Shown piece by piece: positions 23,098 to 26,669 of a stretch of 64,000 nt of DNA (the first letter of the stretch is position 1; every line of letters starts with the position of its first letter). The stretch covers positions 1 through 64,000 of the forward strand of contig NZ_JADVOP010000024.1 of assembly GCF_016508585.1 (NCBI RefSeq), in the 5' to 3' direction. Source of the DNA: Acinetobacter baumannii. Its GTDB lineage: Bacteria; Pseudomonadota; Gammaproteobacteria; Pseudomonadales; Moraxellaceae. Below the pieces are notes generated by a model. It saw nothing but the letters and a program-made list of their open reading frames with translations. It was not told the origin of the DNA and did not search any database. The position numbers and the translations under genes are program-made.

Positions 23098-23175
23098 ATC
23101 AGTCGGCATTCGCCCATGTCATTAAAATTTTGCTATATTGATCAAGTCATGATTTATCCATTGCGATCAACTGCT

Positions 23176-24633
23176 ATGTACTTCAATCCTCGTTATCCCA
23201 CGTTGAATCCAAAACTATACCATGAGCAAATGCCCAACCCACTTCAGGGGGCCAAAGCAGGACATTTTAATCTTGCACTCGCTGATGAATTGCAATGGTC
23301 TGAAGAGGAAAAAACGCAGTGGGTCGAGATTTGCAGTGGGCAAAAAACATTCCCAGAATTCCATCCTTTAGCGATGGTCTATGCAGGACATCAGTTTGGT
23401 CAATGGGCTGGTCAGCTGGGTGATGGTCGGGGTTTGCTGATTGCGCAAATTCTCAATCGCCATCATCAAACCATTGATCTGCATTTAAAAGGCGCGGGCT
23501 CTACGCCCTACTCTCGCATGGGCGATGGTCGAGCTGTACTTCGTTCCGTCATCCGTGAGTATTTGGCAGGTCATGCCTTGAATTCGCTTGGTGTCCCCTC
23601 TAGTAACGCCGTAGGTTTTACCTCATCAAATCAAGGTGTTCAACGTGAGAAACTCGAACTCGGCGCAATGATGTTACGTACTTCTGATTGTCACATCCGT
23701 TTAGGTCATTTTGAATGGATCAACCAATACCAACCAGATTTACTGGCTGAATTTACCCAAAAATGTATTGAATGGCATTACCCTGAGTGTTTAGCGCTTC
23801 AAAAAACAGGAACTGAAAATCACATCTTGGCCTTTGCACGCAAAGTGATTCAAAATACAGCCATCATGATTGCCAAATGGCAGTTGGTTGGCTTTGCGCA
23901 TGGAGTGATGAATACTGACAATTTAAATATTACTGGTTCGACACTCGATTTTGGTCCTTATGGTTTTATGGAAAGATTCCGCCCAAACTGGATCAATAAT
24001 CACAGTGATTATAACGGACGTTACACTTATCAAAACCAACCCAGCATCGCACATTGGAACTTATGGAATTGGTTGAACAATTTAATTCCACTTGCCCATC
24101 CCGAAACAAAAGAACAATTTAAACAGGATTTGGTTGAATGTTTAGAAGATTTTGAACCTACTTTTCTAAAACATTATACACAGGGCCTCTGTCAAAAACT
24201 TGGACTGCCAGACTTTCACAAAGACAGTTTTGACTGCGGAATGAGCTTTTTAAGAATTTTACAAAGTGAACAACTTGACTATACCGGCAGTTTTATTCGT
24301 TTACAAAATAAGCAGTATGAAGCCATTCAAGATGATTGCTTAGATCGCCATCAATTTGAAGTATTTTTGAATCAATACCAAAGTATTCGTGAACATCAGG
24401 ATCTAGATGTATTGGATGCTGAGATGAAGCAAGTCAATCCAGTTTATATTTTGAGAAATCATATGGCTCAAAAAGCCATTGAACAGGCTGAACGAGATGA
24501 TTTTTCTGAGGTCGACCGTTTATTTAAATTATTAAGCCAACCTTTTAAGCGTCAGCTTGATTTAGAAACCGCCGCAGATTTAGCGCCTTTAGCAAGCGAC
24601 TTACCAGAAGTCATGGTAAGTTGCTCTTCATAA
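23176..24633 (+). CDS. selO: SelO protein adenylyltransferase (YdiU family)
   Basis: A pseudokinase-fold enzyme that transfers AMP to Ser, Thr or Tyr of target proteins, linked to redox homeostasis. Marks: FHPLAMVYAGHQFGQWAGQLGDGRG, LHLKGAGSTPYSRMGDGRAVLRS, GFAHGVMNTDN with the HGVMNTDN catalytic loop, and LDFGPYGFME (the DFG-like site). The start ATG 23176 puts the family opening YFNPRYPTL at the N-terminus and gives 485 residues; ATG 23116 would add 20 unrelated residues. Unlike eukaryotic SelO there is no C-terminal selenocysteine; it ends VMVSCSS with an ordinary Cys three from the end. Confidence 0.93.
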   Translation: MYFNPRYPTLNPKLYHEQMPNPLQGAKAGHFNLALADELQWSEEEKTQWVEICSGQKTFPEFHPLAMVYAGHQFGQWAGQLGDGRGLLIAQILNRHHQTIDLHLKGAGSTPYSRMGDGRAVLRSVIREYLAGHALNSLGVPSSNAVGFTSSNQGVQREKLELGAMMLRTSDCHIRLGHFEWINQYQPDLLAEFTQKCIEWHYPECLALQKTGTENHILAFARKVIQNTAIMIAKWQLVGFAHGVMNTDNLNITGSTLDFGPYGFMERFRPNWINNHSDYNGRYTYQNQPSIAHWNLWNWLNNLIPLAHPETKEQFKQDLVECLEDFEPTFLKHYTQGLCQKLGLPDFHKDSFDCGMSFLRILQSEQLDYTGSFIRLQNKQYEAIQDDCLDRHQFEVFLNQYQSIREHQDLDVLDAEMKQVNPVYILRNHMAQKAIEQAERDDFSEVDRLFKLLSQPFKRQLDLETAADLAPLASDLPEVMVSCSS

Positions 24634-24654
24634 ATATATTGAGGACAATCATAC

Positions 24655-24694
24655 TTACCCACAATTTCTGTGGATAACCATGTGTTTATCCACA
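24655..24694. repeat. DnaA-box cluster A
   Basis: Three DnaA-box-like 9-mers lie in 40 bases: TTACCCACA (24655), TGTGGATAA (24669, inverted, perfect) and TTATCCACA (24686, perfect). The last two form a 10-bp inverted repeat with an 8-base spacer. A near copy with the same spacing occurs at 25918-25957. It is intergenic, between selO and the L,D-transpeptidase gene. Confidence 0.85.
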
Positions 24695-24788
24695 GGATAA
24701 ATCAATAATCACAATTCAGCTACAACGTGCTGGTTTAAAATGCGTAAAATTTAGGCAAGACATCGCTTTGCAACATCTATACTTTACA

Positions 24789-25388
24789 ATGAATAAAAAA
24801 TACCTCTTTTCAATTTGTACGGTTTTAATCCTGATCATCACGAGCGGATGGATTTATCAAAAATATAATCAATTTATTCCAACAGCCACTGCTGCAATCC
24901 ATGTCAAAAATTTAACCCTGCAAGATATCAATCATATTCGTCAAAACACCCCGATTACAGAGGTTAAAGTTTATAAGTCTGCTCGCATTGTCCAATTGAT
25001 GCATCATGATCAAAAAATTCAAAGCTATCCAATGCGTTTAGGTTTTACCCCACAAGGTCATAAAGTACAGGAAGGGGATGGAAAAACACCTGAGGGGCAA
25101 TATATTTTAGATTGGCGCAATCCCAACAGCGCCTTTTATAAATCATTGCATGTATCTTATCCAAATCAACAAGATCTCGTCCAAGCCAAACATCTGGGTG
25201 TTTCCGCAGGGGGGGATATTATGATTCACGGCTCTGCAACCATTTCACAGGTCGAGAAAATGCCAAGTTTAATGAATTATTTACCTCGAAATGACTGGAC
25301 ATGGGGCTGCATTGCCGTTAGAAATGTTGATATGGATGAAATCTGGAAACTTGTGGATGATGGAACAATGATTCGCATTTACCCATAA
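24789..25388 (+). CDS. L,D-transpeptidase (YkuD-domain) with N-terminal anchor
   Basis: A periplasmic cell-wall enzyme of 199 residues that makes 3-3 crosslinks or attaches amino acids or proteins to peptidoglycan. Residues 4-22 are a single hydrophobic segment (signal anchor). The YkuD motif is at H147 (MIHGSA) and C174 (WGCIAVRN); the usual SxGC is replaced by WTWGC, seen in some family members. I use ATG 24789; the 7 residues upstream from TTG 24768 are unlikely. It is flanked by the two DnaA-box clusters together with the next gene. Confidence 0.87.
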   Translation: MNKKYLFSICTVLILIITSGWIYQKYNQFIPTATAAIHVKNLTLQDINHIRQNTPITEVKVYKSARIVQLMHHDQKIQSYPMRLGFTPQGHKVQEGDGKTPEGQYILDWRNPNSAFYKSLHVSYPNQQDLVQAKHLGVSAGGDIMIHGSATISQVEKMPSLMNYLPRNDWTWGCIAVRNVDMDEIWKLVDDGTMIRIYP

Positions 25389-25409
25389 TTGAATTAAAAA
25401 GAGAACATC

Positions 25410-25793
25410 ATGACTGGTGATGAAATTCGGAAAATCGCTTTTAATTTTGCAACTCAATTGCCAAAATCAGAATTAGACTATCCATTTGGTGAAGATATTC
25501 CTGTCTTTAAAGTGCTTGGTAAAGTGTTTATGTTAAGTTTTGAATTGCATGGTCAAAAAGTCATTAATTTAAAGGTTCAACCTGAGCATGGTGAAATGCT
25601 GAGAGATGTGTATCCCTCAATTAAAGTAGGTTATCACATGAATAAACGCCACTGGATTTCGGTTTATGAAGGCGATCAAATTCATGCCGATTTGATTCAG
25701 GACTTGGTCGAGACTTCCTATGAATTGGTCAGCAAAACGCTGACTAAAGCTCAAAAACAGGTTTTAGCAATCCATCAACAGATCCAGTCATAA
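25410..25793 (+). CDS. MmcQ/YjbR-family protein
   Basis: A 127-residue protein of the MmcQ/YjbR family (CyaY-like fold), described as DNA-binding or of unknown role. Visible signature: LDYPFGEDIPVFKVLGKVFML near the N-terminus and VGYHMNKRHWISV in the middle. It follows the transpeptidase gene by 21 bases and probably shares its transcript; there is no functional link that I can name. Confidence 0.88.
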   Translation: MTGDEIRKIAFNFATQLPKSELDYPFGEDIPVFKVLGKVFMLSFELHGQKVINLKVQPEHGEMLRDVYPSIKVGYHMNKRHWISVYEGDQIHADLIQDLVETSYELVSKTLTKAQKQVLAIHQQIQS

Positions 25794-25917
25794 GAATGTT
25801 CAACGATTTGACGACTCAGCCGGATCAATACAAATTGTTTATCTGCATCACAATATGTGAGTTATACTCCATTCAAATGCTTGTTTTTTCAGCATTGATT
25901 TCAACATTTGTACACAT

Positions 25918-25957
25918 TTACCCACAATATCTGTGGATAAACCTGTGTTTATCCACA
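25918..25957. repeat. DnaA-box cluster B
   Basis: The same three-box pattern as cluster A: TTACCCACA (25918), TGTGGATAA (25932, perfect) and TTATCCACA (25949, perfect), with identical spacing and only a few base changes in the spacers. It lies between the convergent YjbR-family and baeR genes, 1263 bases from cluster A. The arms plus spacing could also form a hairpin in RNA. Confidence 0.85.
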
Positions 25958-25982: not shown

Positions 25983-26669
25983 TTAATCTTCTGGATATTC
26001 AAAACGATAGCCTACACCATAAACAGCTTGTACCCATTCATGGCGGTTTCCTGTTTCAGCAGCTTCCGAAATTTTTCTTCGTAAGTTCTTGATATGACTA
26101 TCAATAACACGGTCAGCCACATCAAAACTGTCTGGATTGATATGATCTAAAAGTTGAGCTCTTGAGTAGACTTGACCTAAATGTTCGAGGAAAAGCTCTA
26201 AAAGACGAAATTCGGTTGGTGTTAAATTCAACGATTTTTGTTGATACCAGATACGTTGTTGTGCTTTATCAATTCTGAATAAATCATTGGCTTCAGGTTC
26301 AGCCTTGCGTTCTAAACGGCGCAACACAGCTTGTACACGTGCAACCAGTTCTTTCGGACTAAATGGTTTACATACATAATCATCAGCCCCCATGTTTAGT
26401 CCCAATACGCGGTCAATTTCTTCAGTTCGTGCAGTCACCATAATGATCGGTAAATCTGTTTGTTCACGCACTTTACGACAGATGGTAAGACCATCCATAC
26501 GTGGCACCATCAAATCCAGAACCATGAGACTTGGTTTACGTTGCTGAAAACTCTCATAAGCTTCCTGACCATCATGAAACATACTGACTTCAAAGCCTGC
26601 CGCTTCTAGATAATCCCGCACCAATTGCGCAAGTTCAACTTCATCTTCTACCAGCATGATATGTTTCAT
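25983..26669 (-). CDS. baeR: BaeR-like OmpR-family response regulator
   Basis: A 228-residue regulator: receiver domain with phosphoacceptor D52 (VLDLMVPRMDG), acid pocket E9/D10, Thr/Lys switch (TAR, KPFSP), and a winged-helix domain ending in VYGVGYRFEYPED. In Acinetobacter BaeR controls envelope stress and AdeABC-type efflux. It is 15 bases downstream of the kinase gene. Assignment to Bae rather than another OmpR pair rests on the kinase and the Spy-like gene next door. Confidence 0.85.
   Translation of the reverse strand: MKHIMLVEDEVELAQLVRDYLEAAGFEVSMFHDGQEAYESFQQRKPSLMVLDLMVPRMDGLTICRKVREQTDLPIIMVTARTEEIDRVLGLNMGADDYVCKPFSPKELVARVQAVLRRLERKAEPEANDLFRIDKAQQRIWYQQKSLNLTPTEFRLLELFLEHLGQVYSRAQLLDHINPDSFDVADRVIDSHIKNLRRKISEAAETGNRHEWVQAVYGVGYRFEYPED

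Follow-up and report, generated by a model that had tools for sequence, protein, structure and literature searches.

A doubled four-box site at the selO-baeR locus of Acinetobacter as a candidate DARS-type DnaA-recharging element

Two short intergenic sites in a 64-kb window of an Acinetobacter genome (the window being the whole stretch of DNA that was analyzed) each hold four DnaA boxes, and on the evidence of the sequence we consider it somewhat probable that each is a DARS-type element at which DnaA is recharged. This reading is built on the order, orientation and spacing of the boxes, on their conservation, on their likeness to E. coli DARS1, on the place of the sites between gene ends and on their distance from dnaA. 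The sites and the genes around them are as follows.

23116..24633, + strand: selO, protein adenylyltransferase gene (PF02696), whose 3′ end adjoins site 1
24655..24663, + strand: site 1 box I, TTACCCACA, in the position and orientation of DARS box I
24669..24677, - strand: site 1 box II, TGTGGATAA on the plus strand (TTATCCACA on the minus strand), 5 bp from box I
24681..24689, - strand: site 1 box III, weak, ATAAACACA on the minus strand, 3 bp from box II
24686..24694, + strand: site 1 fourth box (IV), TTATCCACA, overlapping box III and tail-to-tail with box II at 8 bp
24789..25388, + strand: YkuD (L,D-transpeptidase-domain) gene, between the sites
25410..25793, + strand: YjbR-family gene, between the sites
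25918..25926, + strand: site 2 box I, TTACCCACA
25932..25940, - strand: site 2 box II, TTATCCACA on the minus strand
25944..25952, - strand: site 2 box III, ATAAACACA on the minus strand
25949..25957, + strand: site 2 fourth box, TTATCCACA
25983..26669, - strand: BaeR-like response regulator gene, convergent, whose 3′ end adjoins site 2

At both sites TTACCCACA is followed after 5 bp by TGTGGATAA and after a further 8 bp by TTATCCACA, and a TGTG half-box lies 3 bp past the second box, where it forms part of box III on the minus strand; boxes III and IV overlap by 4 bases. The TGTG and box III are absent from the list in an earlier note on this DNA, whose coordinates, 1263-base separation and account of the same three 9-mers in the same orientation and spacing all proved correct on re-examination, as did the L,D-transpeptidase and YjbR genes that it placed between the sites; upstream of these lies selO and downstream the BaeR-like regulator gene. 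The regulator is so named because BaeR is its best NCBIfam model, at a score under the model cut-off. The two copies, offset by 1263, are 81% alike over 59 aligned nucleotides and identical at 39 of 46 core bases; site 1 is situated 95 bp ahead of the start codon of the YkuD gene, and site 2 is placed between two convergent gene ends.

A search of the 64-kb window for TGTGGATAA-N8-TTATCCACA with up to 3 mismatches gave 2 matches against 0.02 expected, and the same two-box search on 100 shuffles of the window reached a maximum count of 1, confirming that the pairing is, as the earlier note had claimed, far more than chance. In the whole 4.34-Mb genome the three-box pattern, again with up to 3 mismatches, was found only at the two window sites. 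A simple dispersed repeat was rejected on this count and because the flanks are unrelated across species. Perfect DnaA boxes number 75 in the genome (31 for the reversed control), and the densest places beside the window sites are oriC (dnaA-rpmH, C29:10608-10900) and a cluster at C29:34521-34742, 24 kb on from oriC. Other places with at least two boxes within ~300 bp include single pairs such as C20:20587/20849, and one further 8-bp inverted pair lies at C25:19051-19076, between genes that by eye are sodC-like and DUF2252-like.

DARS is defined by three boxes, with box I opposite to boxes II and III and with spacing that is equal in both E. coli DARS, as described in passages of PMC5742627. 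The DARS loci were taken from MG1655, their boxes were located there and the E. coli spacing was measured on that genome: the DARS1 core reads TTATCCACT, 5 bp, TGTGGATAA, 3 bp, TGTGTATTA, and the DARS2 core has the same 5-bp and 3-bp gaps. The order of box I, 5 bp, opposed box II, 3 bp and box III at the window sites is this core geometry, so that both sites have the three-box core with box I opposed to II and III and both have the 5-bp and 3-bp spacing. Across the 42 DARS-form sites of the alignment described below, boxes I and II show 0-1 mismatch to TTWTNCACA and box III shows 2 mismatches with its CACA half invariant, a weakness that counts against the DARS reading, though imperfect third boxes are seen in E. 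coli DARS as well. A blastn search with window positions 24650-24700 against 28 Gb of E. coli sequence, which presupposed nothing about DARS, found matches in 5374 of 5426 genomes, at a median of one place each. Among the matches listed, most were of 31 bases at 90% with an E value of 0.07 and the best had an E value of 0.006 (these values refer to the whole 28-Gb collection), and no place in E. coli covered 80% of the query. The two match places that were inspected both lie between bioD and uvrB, which is DARS1. This resemblance could be convergence. Recharging of DnaA was among several roles that had been suggested from the window, and its support comes from the blastn match to DARS1, from conservation and from the way in which the boxes are ordered, oriented and spaced.

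To follow the element in relatives, loci were fetched by the BaeR-like neighbour protein, and the interval from selO to baeR was scanned in the best 80 of 582 loci for the fixed-gap DARS pattern with up to 4 mismatches. This gave 44 sites in 42 loci and none in 38. Strong sites, with up to 2 mismatches, numbered 40 in 38 loci; these and the two window sites made up the conservation alignment of 42 sites, from which the 4 weak ones (L122, L125, L141 and L144) were left out. Mean pairwise identity was 0.85 in box I, 0.99 in box II, 1.00 in the TGTG and 0.99 in the fourth box. The 5-bp spacer stands at 0.83 and the 3-bp spacer at 0.40; the 6 bases past the fourth box reach 0.73, the stretch 20-5 bp upstream 0.41, and the outer flanks (>20 bp upstream, >10 bp downstream) a chance-like 0.29-0.34. 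Because boxes I and II, the TGTG and both gaps were in the search pattern, their conservation is partly built in, and sites found with fixed spacing are no test of spacing; the fourth box and the drop to chance outside were not part of the pattern. The mismatches to the pattern are unevenly spread over the 42 sites, with one deviant in box II, none in the TGTG and the rest in box I. The element persists in other species whether or not the YkuD and YjbR genes are there, and these genes are dispensable for its presence. Its start varies within the selO-baeR interval in other species, regardless of the intervening genes: it can lie 7-48 bp downstream of the selO match, 60-70 bp ahead of the baeR end, or at some other point.

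An unbiased choice was made in the same best 80 of 582 loci by searching for boxes II and IV only, with one mismatch in all and any gap of 0-20 allowed. This search returned 64 pairs in 61 of the 80 loci, every one with a gap of 8 bp, and a control of twelve 19.9-kb stretches elsewhere in 12 Acinetobacter genomes returned one pair, with a gap of 2. TGTG stands at exactly 3 bp, the DARS form, in 40 of the 64 pairs and is absent in the other 24, and 23 loci with a TGTG-less pair have no DARS-form site. A box I candidate accompanies 55 pairs, at 5 bp in 37, at 14 bp in 11 and elsewhere in 7. Among the loci with selO in view (70 of these best 80), 59 carry the 8-bp pair, 36 of them in the DARS form and 23 only in the non-DARS form. 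The loss of boxes where the neighbouring genes persist, which the earlier note had held to speak against a DnaA role, was therefore seen in part, since among the 70 loci keeping selO and baeR 11 are without a pair and 23 have a pair without DARS features. With the pair in 59 of 70 loci and the DARS form in 36, what this locus keeps more steadily is the 8-bp tail-to-tail pair, of which the DARS core represents one form. Likewise, the 23 of 70 loci whose pairs lack TGTG at 3 bp and the 11 of 55 pairs with box I at 14 bp indicate that DARS geometry is not genus-wide here.

The non-DARS form lies 17-41 bp past the selO match and has a different loop, TTTAAGCA in 7 of 24 cases; G followed by at least 4 T occurs in 5 of the 24 (L089, L100, L106, L131 and L140), with A runs on the opposite side. 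Loci with this form behind selO include L075, L076, L079, L080, L086, L089 and L091, and it often has an extra box 14 bp upstream and in some cases A and T runs like those of a two-way terminator.

A quick tree of the two regulator proteins, labeled with site numbers from the fixed-gap count, placed the two-site state in one group that comprises the window, A. guillouiae and A. piscicola (SH-aLRT 99); the genome G005 likewise has two sites. On the calcoaceticus-haemolyticus side of the tree 28 of 32 rows have one DARS-form site, and on the lwoffii side 36 of 39 have no site by this count. The duplication proposed for the window fits the near-identical copies and the clade that keeps both. In A. 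silvestris (L077) a DARS-form site on the baeR side is combined with a non-DARS pair on the selO side, and this mixed layout suggests that the doubling may predate the clade in which both sites have the DARS form.

We also examined the occurrence of the DARS pattern outside this locus, with up to 3 mismatches. It was found in all 119 Acinetobacter genomes (this one included), with one control match; in 144 of 149 genomes of the family (41 being Acinetobacter), with no control match; in all 25 genomes of 15 other genera; and in 199 of 232 genomes of the class, with one control match. Among the matches listed, a triad of the type TTKTCCACA-N5-TGTGGATAA was present in 44 of 44 Acinetobacter genomes, and one Acinetobacter genome in the family list (G145) had none of this exact type. 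The loci of this type that were inspected adjoin ttcA, most with a transglycosylase gene and htpX on the other side, and the triad directly precedes a TTGACA hexamer; this genome has it at C95:3228 (G000; L165:3228). Further ttcA-side loci are L153, L156, L159, L161, L164, L167, L168 and L170. This more widely kept triad is possibly the older DARS of the Moraxellaceae. In 8 of the 15 other genera a gene related to this transglycosylase gene lies close to the triad, and at one locus (L203) the triad adjoins uvrB. The possibility that an oriC of the dnaA-rpmH type was the source of the triads was rejected: a search of 40 loci (L184-L223; 30 from the family and 10 from the class), with ~1.5 kb inspected on each side, yielded no coding match to DnaA or RpmH at E 1e-5, a check that a short RpmH could escape.

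Pairs of boxes were counted in 25 Acinetobacter genomes. Head-to-head pairs of 8-mer cores have a 5-bp gap in 19 of 28 cases and a 14-bp gap in 5, and six of the 19 share one common A/T-only spacer, mostly on small contigs and with no third box. Tail-to-tail pairs have an 8-bp gap in 45 of 73 cases and a 14-bp gap in 22, and those of the 14-bp pairs that were checked are at oriC. TGTG occupies the DARS position in 16 of the 45 tail-to-tail 8-bp pairs and is absent in 29, some of which are the non-DARS form of the selO-baeR locus. In a genus-wide set of 8-bp pairs, a run of at least 5 T is listed beside the pair for 3 of 23 pairs without TGTG (L015, L016 and L037). With up to 1 mismatch, tail-to-tail pairs at exactly 8 bp were seen in 116 of 119 Acinetobacter genomes, at 0-10 each, the selO-baeR sites included.

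A third conserved pattern in Acinetobacter consists of TTATCCRCA (TTATCCGCA) or TTATCCTCA, 5 bp and TGTGGATAA, with outer arms that match further out, and lies at the end of a gene that by eye is universal-stress-protein-like (L154:3051-3087, L157, L160, L162, L163, L169 and L171). It was set apart from the DARS-type sites and is by eye likely a plain hairpin, because its arms change together between species.

The cluster 24 kb from oriC (G000:C29:34470-34860; L005:2971-3361) is oriC-like, lies between a gene that by eye is purK-like and an mltB-type transglycosylase gene, and holds 4 perfect DnaA boxes and 6 exact TTTRAATTYAAA palindromes; oriC holds another 4 of these palindromes. The palindrome occurs 39 times in the genome, against 22 for the reversed control. 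All 12 of the other Acinetobacter genomes inspected (L227-L238) have, ~18-31 kb from dnaA (distances by hand), a cluster in which 6-15 such motifs are accompanied by at least one perfect DnaA box. TTTRAATTYAAA is reported to be targeted by the orphan methylase AamA; in the passages available of that study, region 1 has 29 methylated sites and region 2, which is dnaA/rnpA, has 9, and the term oriC does not appear in the main text (PMC10483419). This second cluster may be a Dam/SeqA-like or datA-like control site.

The distance from the selO-baeR site to dnaA is ~0.15 of the chromosome in G047 and G084, 0.17 in G010 and 0.24 in G063, and that from the ttcA site is 0.21-0.31; the fractions were worked out by hand, with G084 in 2 contigs and G063 in 9, and the window genome (111 contigs) stands outside this set. 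In E. coli, DARS2 and DARS1 lie at ~0.21 and ~0.33 of the chromosome, according to coordinates given in part of PMC11317965. A mid-arm position, which is a trait of E. coli DARS outside the strict definition, was thus found in four genomes. The DnaA of this genome is identical to that of E. coli at 224 of 460 aligned positions, and we take most of the residues by which E. coli DnaA contacts the box to be kept in it. The counterparts of E. coli D269, R281, R285, L290, R334, R399, R407, Q408, D433 and H434 are retained, whereas those of E21, F46, R245 and T435 differ, which counts against the DARS reading; D269 and L290 are described, in passages of PMC5742627, as having roles in DARS.

Several other explanations would account for part of these data. 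One is that the sites act as an RNA hairpin or transcription terminator at gene 3′ ends, with the likeness to DnaA boxes being secondary, which we consider unlikely. Both sites fold better than all 200 shuffles on both strands, and box II pairs with the fourth box in 376 of 378 cells, so that this pair by itself would allow a hairpin. In the non-DARS form the stem is partly extended by the A/T runs, and the G followed by at least 4 T in 5 of 24 cases points the same way; furthermore, none of 29 intergenic 8-bp pairs lies between divergent genes, compared with 37 of 150 background gaps, in a count for which genes were called mechanically and relatives are not independent. However, a promoter and terminator scan and an Rfam search over the region found nothing at the window sites, where the pair has no adjacent T run and the G+C-rich hairpin followed by a T run of an intrinsic terminator is not seen. 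Box I fails to pair with box II in 41 of 378 cells, and no change compensates for this; on these grounds a box I-box II hairpin was rejected by covariation. In addition, all 42 sites have the same TGTG in the loop, for which a hairpin has no need, and a terminator would require no stem made of DnaA boxes. The RNA stem-loop that the earlier note had offered can fold, and the non-DARS form is more hairpin-like in some species, but the stem-loop reading gains no support from covariation in the DARS form and leaves the conserved TGTG unexplained.

Titration or storage, in which the boxes would bind DnaA and cut its free level with no nucleotide exchange, is in our estimate a rather improbable role. 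It would fit the two perfect boxes per site and the 8-bp tail-to-tail pairs that occur without the DARS layout at this locus and elsewhere in the genus. On the other hand, titration needs neither a fixed spacing nor half of a third box, yet among pairs chosen with no regard to these features 40 of 64 have TGTG at 3 bp, and 37 of the 55 that have a box I candidate carry it at 5 bp, and so few sites would presumably store few DnaA molecules. Least probable by far, in our judgement, is a DnaA-dependent control of the neighbouring genes through promoter regulation or a roadblock. The position of site 1 ahead of the YkuD gene would suit it, as would the other triad of this genome, just before the TTGACA hexamer by ttcA, and the location of E. 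coli DARS1 upstream of uvrB; against this stand the convergent gene ends around site 2 and a position in the interval that varies between species whichever genes intervene. Regulation of the neighbours had been among the suggestions made from the window, and the convergent ends at site 2 and the persistence of the element in species where the YkuD and YjbR genes are gone speak against it.

Under the DARS-type reading, which we favour, ADP-DnaA would sit face to face on boxes I and II, with a further DnaA molecule at the weak box III; contact between AAA+ domains would loosen the ADP, and the freed DnaA could then take ATP, so that the next round at oriC could start. DnaA binding, nucleotide exchange and an effect on initiation are what the layout would predict. 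The proposed element would be present twice, each copy with a strong fourth box that overlaps box III and stands tail-to-tail with box II. The probable effect of this fourth box is a gain in affinity or a competition with DnaA at box III, and the 4-base overlap of boxes III and IV suggests that these may exclude each other, in which case the element would be a switch. A tentative extension, which we regard as doubtful, is a composite four-box switch in which boxes I, II and III form the DARS and boxes IV and II a competing assembly, such that an 8-bp pair could be converted to a DARS by the addition of boxes I and III. If this composite reading were true, Acinetobacter would have an undescribed class of DnaA control site that is doubled in one clade.

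The conservation of DARS2 has been described for species related to E. coli, in the available parts of PMC4245941 and PMC8682772. Among the papers listed by a literature search, judged by title and start of abstract and with PMC10218098 and PMC5397419 (which hold such terms) aside, none gives an account of DARS for Acinetobacter or Pseudomonas. Our data suggest that a DARS-type timing device extends well past E. coli and its close relatives. If the sites work as DARS, the recharging of DnaA would reach the Moraxellaceae and, by the class count, most of the Gammaproteobacteria sampled, and it would be directly testable in Acinetobacter, where the sites are short, their sequence is kept in changing gene neighbourhoods and their doubling in one clade provides a natural dosage experiment.

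Among known systems, E. coli datA is likewise an intergenic cluster of DnaA boxes off the origin, but it acts through boxes on either side of an IHF site, whereas here four boxes lie within 40 bp and the flanks are unconserved. The datA option raised in the earlier note was rejected on this misfit of layout and flanks: conservation is lacking at any flanking IHF position, and the boxes are arranged as in DARS. E. coli DARS2, upstream of mutH, has the same geometry as the window sites, a similar distance from the origin and 23 of 35 bases in common with either site, but it carries further boxes and sites for IHF and Fis, none of which is position-conserved in the Acinetobacter sites: the alignment of the 42 DARS-form sites revealed no conserved IHF or Fis position in the flanks, and since identity there is chance-like (0.29-0.34) we do not file the element as DARS2. 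E. coli DARS1, between bioD and uvrB, shares 29 of 35 bases with site 1, 18 of them consecutive, and 26 of 35 with site 2. It differs in its genomic place, in being single where the element here is doubled, in its reported need for a flanking stretch, none being conserved at the Acinetobacter sites, and in having no fourth box, which is new relative to the E. coli DARS cores. Finally, double DnaA boxes in E. coli ChIP-seq data have a preferred spacing of 2 or 3 bp in the same direction, as reported in passages of PMC11317965, and boxes II and III here are such a same-direction pair, 3 bp apart; unlike those double boxes, they are accompanied by a box I in the opposed orientation and by a fourth box.
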